IMG/VR virus record: IMGVR_UViG_3300032893_000050
Span: 1 to 58,591 of that record
DNA: 58,591 nucleotides
Reading direction: 5' to 3' (one strand)
DNA from: a virus
The position numbers and the translations under genes were made by a program. Each line of letters begins with the position of its first letter. Positions within the stretch are counted from its first letter, which is position 1. This document shows, piece by piece, positions 4,989 to 51,108 of this stretch. The notes below the pieces were generated by a model. That model searched no databases and was not told the DNA's origin. It saw only the letters and a list, made by a program, of their open reading frames with translations.

Positions 4989-5596
4989 AATCTTCGCCGC
5001 TTGCGACGCTGAAAAATAACACTCAGCGGTTCAACGCAAAGCATGCGGTCGACGCGAAGACCACCCTTCGACTAAAAGCCGCCGCATGGTGTCAGCCTCT
5101 CAATGTTTTCGAGGGATTCTATGGGTCCGGTGAAATGCGCAAACGCGCATGGTCCAATGCTGATTATTGGGTTGGATGTGATACCGAACCATGGAAAGCG
5201 GGACAAGAACCGCGATTAGTTGGAGACAACAGAATCGCCCTCCGTTCGTTGGACTTGGGACGGTTCAACGTTTTCGATCTAGACGCCTTTGGTTCTCCCT
5301 GGGATCAGCTGCTCATAATTTCTGAGCGACGCCAATGGGATATGGGAGAACACGGATCGATCGTCATAACAGACGGCACATCCATGAATTTGAGACTAGG
5401 TTCGGTTCCAAAGTCACTAGCGCAATTGGTTGGCGTATCATCGCGCAGGTCCTCGGGGAATGGCCTAGAGCTTCAAAGCCAAGGACTGCTAGCATGGTGC
5501 GAAGTTTCTCACGTTAGACCCGTGGACATATTTAGCGCCAGGGGTGACACATGCGCAGTGATGAAATACTCATGCGTGAATTTCGAGGGTCTTTAG
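4985..5596 (+). CDS. Trm1/TcmP-like methyltransferase-fold protein
   Basis: 203 residues. FEGFYGSGEM resembles a SAM-binding loop, WVGCDTE the motif II acidic strand, and FDLDAFGSPWDQL the D-x-D-x-F-G-S-P motif of Trm1-type tRNA methyltransferases and of TcmP (three-Cys-motif partner) proteins. TcmP families are defined by adjacency to Gp37/Gp68 proteins, and exactly such a gene converges on this one with a 27-base 3' overlap. The nucleic-acid substrate is unknown. The methyltransferase fold is moderately sure; the TcmP link is inferred from motif plus context. Confidence 0.6.
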   Translation: MKSSPLATLKNNTQRFNAKHAVDAKTTLRLKAAAWCQPLNVFEGFYGSGEMRKRAWSNADYWVGCDTEPWKAGQEPRLVGDNRIALRSLDLGRFNVFDLDAFGSPWDQLLIISERRQWDMGEHGSIVITDGTSMNLRLGSVPKSLAQLVGVSSRRSSGNGLELQSQGLLAWCEVSHVRPVDIFSARGDTCAVMKYSCVNFEGL

Positions 5597-6412
5597 GCGA
5601 CCAACCCCATCAAGCTTCTTGTGCACGTAGGTAGCCGGCATTGCTCCGGGCTTCGTGGGCATCTCGTCCCAGGTTCGACCGTCGAGCAATCGACCCGCTG
5701 ACGTGGGTCGGGATCCACCGTGTTGCTTGAAAAATAGCGGCACTCCGAACTTGATGCACTGGTCGCGCAGTCCGCGAATCCAGTCAGTGTGTTCAGGGTT
5801 CGGTTCCCATTTGCCTTTGCGGTTCTTGCGAGCCAGCCCGCGGACATCGGCTATGGTTGGGTCCATCATGTGAGAGCCTGACTCTCCACCGATGATCAGC
5901 CAGTCGATTCCGATGAGGTCGAGGTCAAGCGGTCCGAGCAATGGTTCCGCTGAGACGAACTTGACTCCGGCATTGATGGCCTTGAGCGTGTCGAGCCGGT
6001 GTGCTGTGAGTTGGTGTTCAATCGTGACACCGAGCCAGACGCAATCCGGAACCGCTCGAGTCGCAAAATATCGAGCGGCCAATTCGGGGCGCTTGGTCAG
6101 CAACTGATAGCGGTGCCGAGGTGTCGAGCGAATTGCGTCAAACATTTGGTCTCGATACGAGTCCGGGATCTGTTTGTGAAACCAGTCACTGGTCGAATTG
6201 CAGAAGATGAGACTCGGATTCTTGATTCGCGAGGGTTCGTCCAGCTTCCAAGGCCGCATTGTGATGTCGAATCCGTTAGGGAATGCCGTCGTGCCGCGCT
6301 TGTCCTCGGTGAGGCGCTCTGCATAGCAGTGCTTGCACCCAGCGCTCACTTTTGAGCAGCCACTTACGGCTCCCCACGTTAGCTCGGTCCAGAGAATTTC
6401 AGTCTCTTGCAT
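5570..6412 (-). CDS. Gp37/Gp68 family (DUF5131) radical-SAM-like protein, copy 1
   Basis: 280 residues. The N-terminus has the three-cysteine motif CSKVSAGCKHCYAE (C-x6-C-x2-C, about residues 19-32), which in this family is thought to hold an iron-sulfur cluster as in radical-SAM enzymes. Other family marks are IFCNSTSDWFH, LLTKRPE, FVSAEPLLGPL and WLIIGGESG, and the end GRLLDGRTWDEMP. The gene is full length and intact, unlike the second copy near 50 kb. The biochemical activity of the family is not established. Confidence 0.88.
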   Translation of the reverse strand: MQETEILWTELTWGAVSGCSKVSAGCKHCYAERLTEDKRGTTAFPNGFDITMRPWKLDEPSRIKNPSLIFCNSTSDWFHKQIPDSYRDQMFDAIRSTPRHRYQLLTKRPELAARYFATRAVPDCVWLGVTIEHQLTAHRLDTLKAINAGVKFVSAEPLLGPLDLDLIGIDWLIIGGESGSHMMDPTIADVRGLARKNRKGKWEPNPEHTDWIRGLRDQCIKFGVPLFFKQHGGSRPTSAGRLLDGRTWDEMPTKPGAMPATYVHKKLDGVGRLKTLEIHA

Positions 6413-11481: not shown

Positions 11482-12540
11482 GTGACGATAGCGGCCGCAA
11501 TCCTAGCCGGCGGCAATCGTGAGCACCTCATCGGCGACGCCATCAAGAGCGTCGACCCGATGGTGGACCACGTTGTGCTGATCGACACCGGTTCGTCTGC
11601 AAAGGCAGCCATTCAGGTTGGCCGCGAGCTGTTGGGAGACCGGTGCACAGTCTTTGAGATGCCGGAGCCGTTCGACTGCGCGACGGGGCGGAACTTCTGC
11701 CTTGATCGCGCGCACGAGCTCGGCTTCGACTGGGCTCTACCGCTCGACACCGATGAGCGCATGCACGGCGATCCCGCAACGGTTCGTCGAATGCTGGACG
11801 AACTGAAGCACATTGACCACATCCTGATCGACGACGCTTCGGGCCTCTACAAGAAACCAAAGTTCATCCGGGTACCACGTAGCGGTTACTGGGATGGGGT
11901 CGTTCACGAGGCATACGTCAGCATGGCGCCGCGTGCGGTCGCGATTGGCATCACGTTCTCAGAAGTGCCCAAGTGCCCGGTCGAGCAAATCTGCCTGATC
12001 GCCACGGTCGAGTACCAGACCCGCAAGGCTCTTGAGCAAGACCCCAACAACGCCCGCTATCACTACTACCGTGGCGACTCACTGGCGGCGCTGGATAGAT
12101 TCGACGAAGCCGTCGAGGAATTCCTGCAGGCGGCCAAGCTGAGTCGGTGGGACGAGGAAATCGACTGGAGCCACTACCGAGCCGCCCAGACCCGGTATTG
12201 CCAGGCCCACTACGAGGAATCGATCGGCATCTGCCTCGACTCCACGATGCGAATCCCTGAGCTGCCCTGGTTGGCAGCGCTCGGATACCATTCGCTGAAA
12301 CGATACGACCTCGAAATCGAGATGGCCAACAAGGCTGCTGATTTGGCCGCCGTGCAACGCAAGACCGAACGGGTTGGCTTCGCGAACCGGTACGCCTGGT
12401 GGGAAGGGCCTTTTGATTGTCTCAGGTGGGCTTATCACGAGCTGGGCAACCTTGAGCGGGAGACCGTCGCCTACGTGAAGTTCCTGTCCCTCAAAGACGA
12501 ACGCGAGAAGCACGACAAGCTAACCCGACTGGCAGCCTAG
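11482..12540 (+). CDS. Family 2-type glycosyltransferase with TPR-like C-terminus
   Basis: 352 residues from a GTG two bases after the upstream stop. The GT-A part shows DHVVLIDTGSS (nucleotide-binding region), RNFCLDRAHELGFDWALPLD and the DxD-type metal site DTDERM. From about residue 180 the sequence becomes helical tandem pairs (YHYYRGDSLAALDRFDEAVE and similar), as in TPR-containing glycosyltransferases. Its place among head genes suggests it glycosylates a virion or host-surface molecule; substrate unknown. Confidence 0.82.
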   Translation: MTIAAAILAGGNREHLIGDAIKSVDPMVDHVVLIDTGSSAKAAIQVGRELLGDRCTVFEMPEPFDCATGRNFCLDRAHELGFDWALPLDTDERMHGDPATVRRMLDELKHIDHILIDDASGLYKKPKFIRVPRSGYWDGVVHEAYVSMAPRAVAIGITFSEVPKCPVEQICLIATVEYQTRKALEQDPNNARYHYYRGDSLAALDRFDEAVEEFLQAAKLSRWDEEIDWSHYRAAQTRYCQAHYEESIGICLDSTMRIPELPWLAALGYHSLKRYDLEIEMANKAADLAAVQRKTERVGFANRYAWWEGPFDCLRWAYHELGNLERETVAYVKFLSLKDEREKHDKLTRLAA

Positions 12541-13236: not shown

Positions 13237-16200
13237 ATGCCGTACTTGCAGGAGCACGCCGCCCGGCAACATCAGCCCGGTGAATACAAGAGCTTTGCCC
13301 GCAAGGCTTTGCCCGGCATCAAGGGAATTGACGCCATTTACGGCGTCCGCAAGAGCGACGGCAAGACCGAGATTCAGTCGTTCAGATTCGACAAGAAGGT
13401 TTGGTCGCCATCGAAGGCCAGAGCCTGGCTGAAGCAGCACGGCAAGCGCGCCAACGTTGAAGCCGCCAAGTCCACCAAGGCTAGCGTGCCCTCAGATCTA
13501 TCCCCCGTTGCAACGGAGCAATCCTTGTCCACCAAGCAAACAGTCGCAGACGACGTCCGCGAGCAGCTGTCGGACGACTATCCACCGGAGTCTACCCAGT
13601 GGGTCGAGTCCGTGCAGTGGGATGGCCCGAAGTCTGTCTCGCTGGTCGATATCGATTTCGCCAACGAGCAGAAATGGCGTGCGTCGGCTGAGCCCGAGAA
13701 AATTCTCAAGTTCGCCAAGAAGATCCAAAAAGGCAAGCTCAAGCCGATGGTACTCGCCAAGGTGCCCGGGAACGAGAAGCTCGTCGTTCTAGACGGACAT
13801 CACCGCGCGTTGGCCAATCGTGCTCTTGGGCGCCCCGGGCTCGCCTACGTGGCGACGGTGCCGAGCAACAAGGGTCCCTGGATGGAGATGCACTCCAGTC
13901 AGACGCACGGCCCCAGCACGTTTTCGATCGAGACCACCGACGCCATCCTGCTGTCGATCGCAAAAGCGCCCACCGACCTATCTGACAATGTTCTGTCCCA
14001 GCTCTCCAAGGACTACCCCCCCGAGGCAACCGCATGGGTCAAGCAGGCGACTTGGTCTGGGCCTCGGACGATTTCGATGAGCAGCGTCGACCTCTCGCAA
14101 GAACAGCAGTGGCGAGCTGCCTCGGAGCCCAAGAAGGTCGAAAAGATCGCCAAAAAGATCCAGAAGGGGAAGCTCAAGCCGATCATCGCGGTGCAGTCTC
14201 CCGACTCCGACAAGTACACGGTCGTTGACGGGCATCACCATGCGCTTGCCTATCTCGATCTTGGCCGCGATCCAGTCGCGTACGTCGGTCAGGTACCCAG
14301 CAAGCATGGTCCGTGGACGGACATGCACTCCAAACAAATCGAGGATCCGAGCCCGATGTCCCTGCAGCCTGAGCAACAGACTCTATTCGACGTCGGCGTG
14401 GGCGCCGTGCATGTGCCAGGAACCGTCAAAGCAAAGCCACAGAAGCTATACGTGAGTGCGAAGCAGCGCGACAAGATGCCCGCGTCCCAGTTTGGTGATC
14501 CGGCGAATAAGTCCTACCCAATCCACGATAAAGCGCACGCCGACAACGCTGCGGCTCGCCTTGAGCAGCAAAAGGGCTCGATGTCTCCAGGTAAGTACGC
14601 CGCAATCAAACGGCGCATCAAGGCCGCCCAGCGTCGTTTTGGCGAAAAGCCAGGAACCAAGTCGTCGATCGTAAGTCCTTCAGGCTATCGCATTAGCCTG
14701 CGGCATCCCGGCGGTGGCAGCACGGTCATCCAGCACCGCATGAGTGCTCTATCAGGTGAGCAGGCCCTGACGGCCATGTGGCTACCAGATCCGGGTCAGC
14801 TACTGACCTACATTCCGATCGACAAGACCGAAGCGCTTGCCGAGCCACAAGCTGACGAGTCTGGCAACAAGCGCATCTGGGTCCAGATTGCCCGCACGGG
14901 TGCATGGGCGGGACATCCCCAGGGTGCGTTTGCGATCACTCCCTCGACCCTGGACCAGATGGTCCAGAACTTCTACGCGCAGGACTTCGGCCGCATCCAG
15001 TGGGACTTCGACCACGCTTCGGCGATGCCTGCGAACTCGGGCACGTTGCCTCAAATCGGCAAGCCCGCGCAGGGATGGATCTACGCGCTTAGACGCGAGG
15101 GCGACAGGTTGTTTGCACTGACCGAATGGCTGCCGCTTGCCAAGCAGTACATCAAGAATGACCAGTATACAGGCGTAAGCCCAGTCATCAATTGGCACTT
15201 CGCGGATCGGGCCACTGGCAAAGAAGTGGGTCCAACGATCACATCGGTCGCTCTCACGAATCTGCCTTTCATCACCGGCATGGACCGCCCCATCGCGGCC
15301 AGCCTCCACGGTATCGCTCGCAATCAACGAGGACCAATGCCTGTTCCACTCACCGAAATTGACGCGGGTGCTCAGCTGCTCGATACGGGCGAGCCCTATT
15401 GCTATTACTCCGATGCGGATTTGATGTCGCAGCTTAAGCAGGTTTTTGGACTGCACGAGCTAGCGACCGCGCAGCAATGCAAAGCCGCGCTATCGAATCT
15501 GACTGATCATCTCGATGCTGTAGACGGCGACGGTTCGGCGCACCACGAGGGCGTGGATCTCGGCACCTACATCGCGAAAATGCGCGATCTGATCAGTGGC
15601 GCCAAAGGGATGAGCGCCACCGAAGTCCTGCAGTTTCTGGATGGAATTCTCGACGCCTACATGAAGGAAAACGGCATTGCCGATCCGGACGAAGACTTGT
15701 CGCTGAGCGCTGCTGCCCCGCAGATTGACGCGCCCGCGGCCGCAGTCGAACCATCAACGGTCGCCACGGCGGCCTCAACGGAAGGAGCCATCGTGGCTGA
15801 CCCTCAAACACCGCCGGTCGTCGCAACCGATCCGGCAACCGTGACGCCTGCCGGCACGGCAACTCCGCCCGTAACGCCTGCCACCGAGACCGCGGCTAGC
15901 GTTGCATCCACCGAAACCCCAACGCTTGAGCAGTCTGAATTGATTCTGCGCGTCGCGGCCCTGGAGGCCGAGAACACGCAGCTCAAGACGCAGATGCAAA
16001 GTCTATCAGCTTCTGCTGAGACCGAGGAACAGCGGCTCAGTGCTGAAGTTGATTCAGTAATCCGCGTCTACGGTCAGAGCAAGGGTCTCAAGCCTGAGCT
16101 GAAGCCTCATCTGTTGCAGCTCCTCAAAGCGAAGCCCGACGCATTCCGGGCCGCGTATCCGCCGGTTGCGCCAGACCAGGAGCACTTGCTGCTCAATCTC

Positions 16201-16437
16201 ACGGGTGGCGGGGCGTCGAATCCGAACGCACCCGGTGCACGCGTTCCCGCCGATACGGCCCTGGACATCAATCCACCGACTCGGTTGAACGAGCATCAAG
16301 CCATTCTGGCGCTCGGTCTCAACGGTCTAACCGATCAACTCGTGGAAGCGGGGATCCCGTTCTCCATCGCACAAATCAAGGCGGACCAGAAAATCCGCGA
16401 GGCCCGCCAGGCCCTAGAAGCAACCCGACAAGGATAA
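13237..16437 (+). CDS. Polyprotein: ParB-like x2, DUF6582-like, Mu I-like prohead protease, scaffold
   Basis: 1066 residues, far longer than a usual Mu I-type protease (about 350-400). Domains: residues 1-75 a prohead-associated module (VRKSDGKTEIQSFRFD); about 112-228 and 258-368 two tandem ParB-like domains, each with DYPPE, KKIQKGKLKP and a (V/L)DGHHxALA motif; about 404-475 a DUF6582-like segment (MSPGKYAAIKRRIKAAQRRF); about 540-690 the protease (IQWDFDHAS, KPAQGWIYAL, TSVALTNLPFI); after 853 a coiled-coil scaffold. The protease removes scaffold in proheads. ParB domains in a head protein suggest a packaged, injected polyvalent protein (inference). Confidence 0.85.
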   Translation: MPYLQEHAARQHQPGEYKSFARKALPGIKGIDAIYGVRKSDGKTEIQSFRFDKKVWSPSKARAWLKQHGKRANVEAAKSTKASVPSDLSPVATEQSLSTKQTVADDVREQLSDDYPPESTQWVESVQWDGPKSVSLVDIDFANEQKWRASAEPEKILKFAKKIQKGKLKPMVLAKVPGNEKLVVLDGHHRALANRALGRPGLAYVATVPSNKGPWMEMHSSQTHGPSTFSIETTDAILLSIAKAPTDLSDNVLSQLSKDYPPEATAWVKQATWSGPRTISMSSVDLSQEQQWRAASEPKKVEKIAKKIQKGKLKPIIAVQSPDSDKYTVVDGHHHALAYLDLGRDPVAYVGQVPSKHGPWTDMHSKQIEDPSPMSLQPEQQTLFDVGVGAVHVPGTVKAKPQKLYVSAKQRDKMPASQFGDPANKSYPIHDKAHADNAAARLEQQKGSMSPGKYAAIKRRIKAAQRRFGEKPGTKSSIVSPSGYRISLRHPGGGSTVIQHRMSALSGEQALTAMWLPDPGQLLTYIPIDKTEALAEPQADESGNKRIWVQIARTGAWAGHPQGAFAITPSTLDQMVQNFYAQDFGRIQWDFDHASAMPANSGTLPQIGKPAQGWIYALRREGDRLFALTEWLPLAKQYIKNDQYTGVSPVINWHFADRATGKEVGPTITSVALTNLPFITGMDRPIAASLHGIARNQRGPMPVPLTEIDAGAQLLDTGEPYCYYSDADLMSQLKQVFGLHELATAQQCKAALSNLTDHLDAVDGDGSAHHEGVDLGTYIAKMRDLISGAKGMSATEVLQFLDGILDAYMKENGIADPDEDLSLSAAAPQIDAPAAAVEPSTVATAASTEGAIVADPQTPPVVATDPATVTPAGTATPPVTPATETAASVASTETPTLEQSELILRVAALEAENTQLKTQMQSLSASAETEEQRLSAEVDSVIRVYGQSKGLKPELKPHLLQLLKAKPDAFRAAYPPVAPDQEHLLLNLTGGGASNPNAPGARVPADTALDINPPTRLNEHQAILALGLNGLTDQLVEAGIPFSIAQIKADQKIREARQALEATRQG
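15782..15787 (+). promoter_or_regulatory. Internal ribosome binding site for nested scaffold
   Basis: aaggag lies 5 bases before an in-frame GTG at 15793, deep inside the protease gene. A near-perfect Shine-Dalgarno at that spacing is not expected by chance inside a coding region and supports internal initiation. Confidence 0.7.
15793..16437 (+). CDS. Nested scaffold protein, in-frame with protease
   Basis: 214 residues sharing frame and stop with the protease polyprotein. It starts with a Pro/Thr/Ala-rich linker, then a coiled coil (ILRVAALEAENTQLKTQMQS) and a helical capsid-binding-like C-terminus (FSIAQIKADQKIREARQALE). Separate scaffolds made from an internal start of the protease gene are known in lambda (C/Nu3) and Mu (I/Z). 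The strong internal ribosome site points to the same arrangement. Confidence 0.7.
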   Translation: MADPQTPPVVATDPATVTPAGTATPPVTPATETAASVASTETPTLEQSELILRVAALEAENTQLKTQMQSLSASAETEEQRLSAEVDSVIRVYGQSKGLKPELKPHLLQLLKAKPDAFRAAYPPVAPDQEHLLLNLTGGGASNPNAPGARVPADTALDINPPTRLNEHQAILALGLNGLTDQLVEAGIPFSIAQIKADQKIREARQALEATRQG

Positions 16438-16926: not shown

Positions 16927-18423
16927 ATGTCTGATGAACACATTGTCCCTCTCTCGTACGCAAATGAGTCTGATGCTCAGGTGCTTTCGGTTCAAGTTGA
17001 CGGTCGCCCTGTTCGTATCGACGTTGTGACCGGTCATCTATTCGACAGATTCGGCAACGACGCTGGCCGTTGGTCTCCCATGGAAGAGACCAGGATCCAA
17101 GATCAGAACACGGCCCTTTCGCGTTCCGCACATCGCGAATCCGCGCACCAATCCGCCCTCGGTATTGCCGGATCATGCGTGAGCCCGCATGGTCACGAAT
17201 ATGTCCAGAGCGTCGCGAGAAGCTACCAAGCTCTTTCGATTGCAAACTCGGAGCAGCGCGCCCAGTATCTGGAAACCGGTACCTACAAGGAAACGGCCGC
17301 AAAAACTCGGATCGATCCCAAGGCTGCCAAGTTCCTGACTGATTGGCGTAACGCTAATCAGACCGAGCAGACTCAGTTGCTTTCAGCAGCGACGCCAGAG
17401 CAAATGAAGCTGCTTGTTGCGGCTGCGTCCCAGGCTCTTGACGTTGGGGTTGCTGACGTTCACGTCGCGCAAGCGCTGCCGAACTTCATCACCGGATACC
17501 ACAACGAGGGTCCCGTAGCGGACGTATATTCGCCTCCGTTGGTTGTGCAACACAAGTCCGATTACTACTGGCAATACAAGAAGGAAGACGCGTTCCAGCG
17601 TGCTCTTCCGCAGCTTGGCGCAGCCGGCGGTGCCCCGTCCGAGATCTTCCCACGATTCGGAAACACGGAGTTCACGGCGATTCAGCGTGCCGTCGCGGCA
17701 TTCGTGCCCACGGAGGTCGAGGCCAACCAAGACGCTCCGCTGCAAATCAAGCTCGGACATGAGAACCGTATGCTGGATGCGGCAATTCTGGAACGAGAAA
17801 TCCGCACCCAGGCGCTGGCTCGCACGTCCGGAAACTGGAACAGCGCAACCACGCTGGCCACCACCTATCAGTGGAACGGCGGCGCCAACAGTGATCCGGT
17901 CAAGGACATCCAGACCATCATCGAGTCCAGCTATGGTGAGCCCAATGCGATGATCATCCCGGGTCACATCTGGCACGATATGGTCCGGAACCCCGCGGTT
18001 CGCTCGTACTACACATACGGCGGGTCGACCCCTGGAATCCTCACGGACCAGCAAATGGCCGCGCTGCTTCGTCTGCCTGAGATTTACGTGGCGCGGATGA
18101 AGTACATCAACACTTCGGGTGCCCTAAAGTACGTATGGGGTGACGACATCACCGTGTTCAGGCGCCCGCTTGCGATGCCGCCCGTGAATCAACGCGACGT
18201 ATGCACGTCCGTGACGTTCCGGTGGGCGATGCAGAACATCAAGATCCCCGACGGGCAAACGTTCTCGCCCGAGATGACGGACGGTCGCGGCTGGGTCATG
18301 CGGCAGTTCTTCAATCAAATTCGCGGTGGTCTCGGCGGAATCCAGATGATTCTGTGCCTGGCTGACGCGGAAGTCCAGACGAGCAAGTATATCGGCAACC
18401 TGCTGATCAACGCTCATCAGTAG
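16927..18423 (+). CDS. Major capsid protein
   Basis: 498 residues. The first about 180 residues are helical and acidic with a Gln/Ala-rich stretch; this resembles a delta-domain removed by the protease (inference). The HK97-like part follows: VADVYSPPLVV, FPRFGNTEFTAIQRAVAAFV, EREIRTQALARTSGNW, a P-domain-like segment NAMIIPGHIWHDMVRNPAVR and the late beta strands DDITVFRRPLAMPP and VCTSVTFRWAMQN. Size, position after scaffold and decoration genes, and a following hairpin fit the major capsid. Confidence 0.82.
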   Translation: MSDEHIVPLSYANESDAQVLSVQVDGRPVRIDVVTGHLFDRFGNDAGRWSPMEETRIQDQNTALSRSAHRESAHQSALGIAGSCVSPHGHEYVQSVARSYQALSIANSEQRAQYLETGTYKETAAKTRIDPKAAKFLTDWRNANQTEQTQLLSAATPEQMKLLVAAASQALDVGVADVHVAQALPNFITGYHNEGPVADVYSPPLVVQHKSDYYWQYKKEDAFQRALPQLGAAGGAPSEIFPRFGNTEFTAIQRAVAAFVPTEVEANQDAPLQIKLGHENRMLDAAILEREIRTQALARTSGNWNSATTLATTYQWNGGANSDPVKDIQTIIESSYGEPNAMIIPGHIWHDMVRNPAVRSYYTYGGSTPGILTDQQMAALLRLPEIYVARMKYINTSGALKYVWGDDITVFRRPLAMPPVNQRDVCTSVTFRWAMQNIKIPDGQTFSPEMTDGRGWVMRQFFNQIRGGLGGIQMILCLADAEVQTSKYIGNLLINAHQ

Positions 18424-50071: not shown

Positions 50072-50887
50072 CTATTTGAGGAAGAACGCCACGCCAGCCT
50101 GGGCGCACTGGTCACGAATCGAGCGGACCCAGTCGTCCTCGCACGGGCGCGCACCGGGGCCGCTTTCACAGCCGACGAGCATTCCGTCAATCTTAGAGCC
50201 AAACGCTGCATCTTGTGATTCGCCGAATGCTGCAGCATCCCAGAAGTTGATTTCGGAAAGCAGAGGTTCAGCACTCACAATCCGCGTTGCCGCCGGAGTA
50301 TCCAGCAGCCACAAGATGCGTTTCTCCGCCTGCTCTTGGTTCTCGCAGCTGACGCCGGGAATGAAATTTGGCAGCGGCCAGTATTCTCCCTCGTGGGCGT
50401 GACACCACTGGTGACGCTCAGCCAGCGCCTCGCCTTCATCACACACGAGGTCTTCAAACTCCTTGTCGCTCAACAGTTCTGACATCCTCTGCGGGCGCTT
50501 TGTGAGTGCGATGAATTTATGCTGCGGACAAGCGGCCATTATTGCAAACACCCTGATGATGAAGCCCAGCGGTACTTTTTCGTGGAACAAATCGCTCATC
50601 GAATTGCAAAACACCGTGCGCGGCTTGCGCCACCTGAGCGGTCTGTCGAGCATCTCGGGTAGGCACCTGACTTCACCTGTCCAATGCGCCCCATACTTGT
50701 TTCTCGACCGAGAACCAATCTCAGTCACCAATCCATGGTATGGTAATCCTTCTTTGGAGAACCTGCCTGCCATTCGCTCTGCATAGCAATGCTTGCACCC
50801 ATCCGATGCATGAGAGCATCCACGGACACAATTCCAGACCTCGCCCGGCGTCCCGTCAGGATTCGCTGCCCACTCGATGCTAGTCAC
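50072..50887 (-). pseudogene. Gp37/Gp68 family (DUF5131) protein, copy 2, interrupted by TAG
   Basis: 271 residues from a GTG at 50887 (GTGA overlap) to TAG at 50072. It has the three-cysteine motif CVRGCSHASDGCKHCYAERM, VFCNSMSDLFHE, ALTKRPQRM, IVSAEPLL and a GCESG box, and breaks off at VAFFLK. Reading past the TAG in the same frame gives SKLVSMPELDGRQHTELPWR and a TAA at 49985, which matches the LDGR..dE.P end of the family. So the last 28 residues are cut by a nonsense change, a sequence error, or are made by read-through. Confidence 0.75.
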
Positions 50888-51108
50888 GGCTGCACCGTTT
50901 TGACCGTAATGACTGGTTCGCCGATGAACTCCAAGTCGTTTTGCGTTTTGGCGTCCCATGCCTGGTTATTTAGAGCATCCTTAGCCGATTGTTCTGCCTG
51001 CTTCAGCACCTGTGCCATCGAGCAATCTAGCCCCCAATGATCGTGGCATTTGACGCGAATTGTCAGGACTACTTCTGCCGTGATACTTATAATTCGTTTG
51101 TCACTCAT
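50884..51108 (-). CDS. Small hypothetical protein
   Basis: 74 residues, coupled on both sides by overlaps. ISITAEVVLTIRVKCHDHWG and a helix AQVLKQAEQSAKDALNN: an alpha/beta mini-fold. No family recognised. Confidence 0.6.
   Translation of the reverse strand: MSDKRIISITAEVVLTIRVKCHDHWGLDCSMAQVLKQAEQSAKDALNNQAWDAKTQNDLEFIGEPVITVKTVQP

Follow-up and report, generated by a model that had tools for sequence, protein, structure and literature searches.

A phage head-maturation protease gene with two tandem ParB/Srx-fold domains and a junction motif shared with the major capsid protein

The head-maturation protease gene of a contractile-tailed phage was found to carry two tandem ParB/Srx-fold domains in an N-terminal extension that is absent from the proteases of four related phages and that ends exactly at a 14-residue motif shared with the major capsid protein. 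The window, meaning the whole stretch of DNA that was analysed, is one 58.6-kb IMG/VR virus record, and the tail type is indicated by its sheath and baseplate wedge genes. We put at roughly one in two the probability that the extension is a nucleotide-using effector which is borne by the protease, packaged in the head, self-released and probably injected.

Architecture of the fused gene

The fused gene coincides exactly with one open reading frame (Table 1), in which a small N-terminal domain, the two ParB/Srx-fold domains, DUF6582, a Mu I-type protease and a scaffold part follow one another, and it is flanked by portal and decoration genes on one side and by the major capsid gene on the other. 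A scan for terminators and promoters gave nothing above chance. The head gene cluster of the window also holds a glycosyltransferase-like gene with TPR repeats (11482-12540), for which no counterpart was seen between portal and protease in the related phage L008, and within the head operon of L008 the other strand carries an ORF for an HNH-like endonuclease (5117-5632, minus strand; judged by eye). Elsewhere in the window, two paralogous PHROG 2045 genes that are 28% identical (5570-6412 and 50072-50959, both on the minus strand) share a CxxxSxGCxHCYAER-type motif.

Table 1. Coordinates of the fused protease gene, its parts and the capsid gene in the window
Feature	Residues	Coordinates	Strand	Remarks
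Fused protease gene, 1066 aa (115 kDa)		13237..16437	+	ORF and alignment to relatives
Unnamed N-terminal domain	1-72	13237..13452	+	Elsewhere mainly 5' of prohead protease in protease-capsid polyproteins
ParB/Srx-fold domain 1	103-225	13543..13911	+
DGHHR motif, domain 1	186-190	13792..13806	+
ParB/Srx-fold domain 2	248-370	13978..14346	+	Tandem sister of domain 1
DGHHH motif, domain 2	331-335	14227..14241	+	Arginine replaced
GAGGA, 10 nt, in-frame internal ATG (codon 374)		14341..14358	+	May be the ancestral start of the protease, retained (weak evidence)
Junction motif FDVGVGAVHVPGTV	384-397	14386..14427	+	Candidate self-cleavage site
DUF6582	416-469	14482..14643	+	Also in ParB-less relatives
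Mu I-type protease domain	540-690	14854..15306	+	Conserved GH 559-560, DFDH 590-593, SP 648-649
Scaffold-like C-terminal part	700-1066	15334..16434	+
Major capsid protein gene		16927..18423	+
Capsid copy of motif, LDVGVADVHVAQAL	171-184	17437..17478	+	At pro-segment/mature boundary

A preliminary description of this DNA had proposed a fusion to a Mu I-type protease, and this was confirmed by a match to Mu-like_Pro (Pfam PF10123; E 4.4e-20, 72.9 bits, above the gathering cut-off of 25.2) and by a PHROGs match to head maturation protease (E 5e-22). The conserved GH, D-x-x-H and S-P positions appear intact and are the same as in the distant homologues of Campylobacter and Helicobacter phages. DUF6582 (PF20223) was matched at E 7.9e-6 with 26.6 bits against a gathering cut-off of 27.3, and PHROG 16160 covers the same stretch (E 1.9e-12). 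It had been taken for a linker of the ParB pair, but since DUF6582 occurs in the proteases of three of the four ParB-less relatives, comparison with them indicates that it is native to the protease lineage, and its arrival together with the ParB pair is ruled out. AAS/TAAS tripeptides at residues 687-689, 845-847 and 886-888 are kept in all five phages within otherwise variable protease-scaffold linkers and are possible further cut sites.

The excess length of the gene had been attributed to the ParB pair. The pair does lie in the extension, but most of the extra length is the whole extension of about 380 residues upstream of the ancestral protease start, which includes a further widespread phage domain that had been overlooked, at residues 1-72. 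This domain of about 70 aa has the pattern PYPNEHAAR...GIDFIYGI...RFD...EARxWL and was not recognised when searched alone against Pfam and PHROGs. It was found at no fewer than 568 confirmed viral places (loci L116-L195 are among its bearers), and the 42 ORFs examined contained Peptidase_S78 in 35 cases, S78_2 in one and a capsid domain in 34. Because it mostly accompanies prohead protease and capsid domains, the extension of the window is itself of head type.

Fold and family of the tandem domains

That the gene encodes two tandem ParB-like domains held up well, as the two are 53% identical over 125 aa without gaps (E 6e-52) and were matched in domain searches. A DGHHxALA motif had been assigned to each and is present in both, as DGHHRALA from residue 186 and DGHHHALA from residue 331, but the pocket arginine of the GxxR motif is kept only in domain 1 (R190) and is replaced by H335 in domain 2. 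The two domains are each other's closest relatives in the tree (support 97/74), with domain 2 on the longer branch, and tandem duplication is therefore the simplest origin. The dN/dS between the copies is about 0.21 at a dS of 1.7, which is near saturation. DGHHH was seen in domain 2 alone within the homologue set; the invariance of the arginine elsewhere is partly a search bias, as the larger homologue scan required [IV]VDGHHRA, while in the earlier one the position could be R or H and the next A or W.

The ParB/Srx fold expected for these domains was recovered in the structure predicted for domain 1. An AlphaFold2 model built from a 30-row alignment had a mean pLDDT of 92.5 and a pTM of 0.85, and it shows the alpha+beta fold common to ParB, Srx and SerK. 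Among its best 50 Foldseek matches in the PDB, nearly all belong to the ParB/Srx superfamily (PadC, sulfiredoxin, SerK, KorB, Noc, ParB and SbnI), with probabilities near 1.0 for most, TM scores of at most 0.56 and no E-value below 1e-3. At the sequence level the window protein was matched by the PHROGs 'ParB-like partition protein' family (E 3e-9) and by ParBc_2 (PF08857; E 4.7e-4, 20.8 bits, below the gathering cut-off of 23.6), and the domains scored 17.3 bits with TIGR00180 (ParB partition), below the curated cut-off of 58.45. Neither an HTH nor a C-terminal dimerization domain next to the NTPase fold was found in the ORF with Pfam and PHROGs. The label 'ParB-like' is thus right as to fold, but by these profile scores the domains fall outside the ParB partition proteins and are best called an unnamed phage family within the ParB/Srx superfamily, below every curated cut-off.

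By sequence, the solved proteins closest to the domains are SerK, which the profile matches at E 1e-5 and which also has the DGHHR motif, and SbnI. An identity as SerK enzymes was dropped on the score with NF053625 (SerK free serine kinase; 40.8 bits, below the curated cut-off of 380) and on the unclear counterpart of the catalytic Glu30, opposite which profile alignments put A149 or A151 of domain 1, with E152 adjacent. The ligand of a ParB-fold protein can be CTP, ATP or GTP, and the sequence does not reveal which (PMC12704722). Going by its kept motif, domain 1 is likely to bind a nucleotide, and domain 2, in which the motif arginine is gone, probably serves as a partner that is either altered or without catalytic activity. 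Nucleotide-related chemistry for the pair would be a guess, one that is aided by the partnership of the family with NUDIX domains.

Relatives of the pair surfaced once motif-focused rows were added to the ParB profile. The first two-row profile found no relative on viral contigs, tblastn of the pair against 50,697 phage records gave no match, and searching viral contigs with the full-length protein as a single query likewise gave no relative, and no close relative that bears the fusion. The profile scan yielded 42 and later 66 viral loci of this ParB/Srx family with up to 49% identity, and the same pattern gave only six weak matches, mainly methanogen, against one genome per species from 84,980 species. 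Thirty non-redundant homologous ORFs contained Phage_portal (18), Phage_portal_3 (3), Portal_Mu (2), MuF (13) and NUDIX (18), and a second set of 26, partly truncated, contained Phage_portal (10), MuF (9) and NUDIX (16), where all counts are per profile and may overlap. Of the homologous ORFs that were scanned, about 60% thus pair the family with NUDIX. Several environmental phages (L041, L043, L047, L048, L063, L075 and others) encode portal-MuF-NUDIX-ParB/Srx polyproteins of about 1200-1900 aa. From these fusions we infer that the family is a recurrent head-borne cargo, mostly attached to portal, MuF and NUDIX domains.

Neither the protease nor the N-terminal domain of the window was matched in any of 72 ParB-family ORFs, and the window is the sole case found of this family attached to a Mu I-type protease. 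PHROG 'head maturation protease' matches in homologues were not accepted as proof of a protease, as in L048, the one inspected, the match falls on the MuF part.

Junction motif and relatives without the extension

Four related phages were located through their capsid protein and protease. All four proteases align with that of the window from about residue 384 to the end and the first 380 or so residues are absent; they start with MADLP-LDVGVASVHVSGAVG, MTQA-LDIGEGAVHIPGAIG, MPSV-LDIGVGDVHTPGAIG and MSA-LDIGTGDVHIPGAVG, where the motif follows within about five residues. No ParB-family domain was found in the records of these relatives, which are partial. On this alignment the cargo-free protease is the ancestral state, with the extension added upstream of the ancestral start, and because the orthologues lack the cargo it is dispensable for assembly in the relatives.

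The motif, LD[VI]GxxxVHxxxxx, has its window copy exactly where the extension ends. It was observed in exactly two proteins in each of the five phages, the protease and the major capsid protein, and scored 33-41 bits at these ten sites and at most 10.4 bits anywhere else in the ORFs of the five phages; the 14-position matrix was built from the same ten sites, which inflates their own scores and leaves the gap to other positions as the informative quantity. In the capsid proteins the motif comes after an N-terminal segment of 110-170 residues. Distant capsid proteins without a pro-segment begin with MPLLTPSSVHIDQPLTN, 8-9 residues before the aligned VH, and since they begin aligned at the motif, it probably marks the mature capsid N-terminus. 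We regard the motif as a strong candidate for a cleavage site common to the protease and the capsid protein. Cleavage there would split residues 1 to about 384-397 (42.4 kDa, pI 9.3) from an acidic protease-scaffold of 72.8 kDa, and because the matrix scan found no second copy within the extension, the cargo would be expected to survive whole. A structure prediction of the capsid protein reached a pLDDT of 41 and was left out of the evidence.

Proposed function and comparison with known systems

The head gene cluster of the window encodes a head protein with an effector-type domain joined to it, which is the arrangement that marks head-packaged effectors. Release of the pair in the prohead as head-borne cargo is supported by the family context and by the motif shared with the capsid protein. 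The protease-scaffold would bear a basic N-terminal cargo of about 42 kDa, consisting of the residues 1-72 domain and the two ParB/Srx-fold domains, which would be built into the prohead as part of it. The activated protease could then cut at LDxGxxxVH and free the cargo inside the head, with the capsid pro-segment removed at the same type of site. The repeated portal and MuF fusions of the family suggest that the cargo may enter the next host with the DNA, where at least domain 1, with its DGHHR kept, might bind a nucleotide and act in early infection. More speculatively, nucleotide-based immunity or host metabolism could be the target, to which the NUDIX partnership is a pointer. The cargo reading follows from the orthologues without the extension and from the presence of the family otherwise on portal and MuF proteins, which are recognised carriers of packaged effectors (PMC5512222; PMC9503650). 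Counting against it, the protease fusion is known from one phage only.

The pair might instead work in the producing cell during assembly, as a nucleotide-sensing regulator or a structural part of the scaffold and protease, with the motif serving as a capsid-docking peptide. Such a docking or assembly role is possible because VH is kept also in capsid proteins without a pro-segment, and the residues 1-72 domain is common on prohead-protease polyproteins and ParB/Srx folds can serve as NTP switches (PMC12704722). We nevertheless find this reading rather doubtful, as the relatives build heads with the same protease and no ParB/Srx pair, and the homologues sit on portal and MuF proteins, which are different partners in assembly; a cargo fits this placement better than a regulator of the protease would. 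It is somewhat less probable still that the gene makes two products, with initiation at the ATG of codon 374 giving most of the protease free of cargo and a full-length form made in minor amount, so that translation rather than cleavage alone sets the cargo dose. This ATG is in frame ten codons before the motif, the relatives start a few codons before theirs and GAGGA lies 10 nt upstream; a lone Shine-Dalgarno-like match could be due to chance, however, and the relatives' own starts mostly have none. Two products would in any case be compatible with the cargo explanation.

The presence of the fusion in only one of five phages could also mean that loss of a stop codon neutrally fused a cargo gene to the protease gene, with no function attaching to the fusion itself. 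This is very unlikely given the open frame of 382 codons, the good conservation of both domains (dN/dS about 0.21), a composition of the extension like that of the rest of the gene and the coincidence of the joint with the motif. An assembly chimera joining two genes in frame, which a single IMG/VR virus record and the lack of a close fusion-bearing relative might suggest, is the least probable of these readings, since the joint is in frame at a meaningful position, the composition is uniform and the residues 1-72 domain is of a type usual on prohead proteases.

Returning to the self-releasing cargo, we tentatively propose that the copy of the capsid maturation site at the joint ties release to the same proteolytic switch, and that a phage-specific ParB/Srx enzyme family, carried by portal, MuF or protease, might target nucleotides as infection begins, perhaps those that serve as immune signals. 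The same protease with and without cargo offers a clean natural comparison. The predicted cut site is precisely placed, and the ParB/Srx family, itself uncharacterised, turns up again and again on phage head proteins of several kinds. If the proposal is true, phages can couple the loading and release of an effector to capsid maturation, and the family would be a candidate enzyme for taking over the host early or for counter-defence.

The closest solved structures by sequence, SerK and SbnI, are enzymes of 242-256 aa, and although SerK has DGHHR too, the window domain differs in its score against the SerK cut-off and in having no clear match to Glu30. The ParB and Noc CTPase clamps share the fold but usually have a GERR-type motif in place of DGHHR, along with the HTH and dimerization domains that were not found in the window protein. 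The fusion is a variant of the already known polyvalent and head-effector theme in which the carrier is the protease itself. The phage P1 record is annotated with DdrB and also encodes a partition ParB, and the window-family profile gave no match to it even at E 10, with a positive control matched. Like the window domains, the polyvalent DdrB-like ParB is a ParB/Srx-fold domain in a late or head-gene context that was proposed to be packaged and injected, and DdrB of P1 undergoes processing and is present in the head (PMC5512222); unlike it, the window has a duplicated domain carried by a Mu I-type protease. NUDIX domains (T4 NudE-like) fused to MuF, portal or capsid-processing peptidase are similar in placing a nucleotide enzyme on head proteins, protease included, but have another enzyme fold, and the available text describes no junction motif (PMC9503650). 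In phage T4, the gp21 protease cuts off its own first nine residues as well as the gp23 pro-segment, and it also trims IPI, a protein that is afterwards injected (PMC9958956). The proposed system resembles T4 in a core cargo that is trimmed by the prohead protease and injected, and in a protease that trims itself and cuts the capsid pro-segment (PMC9958956), but the cargo genes of T4 are separate from the protease gene.
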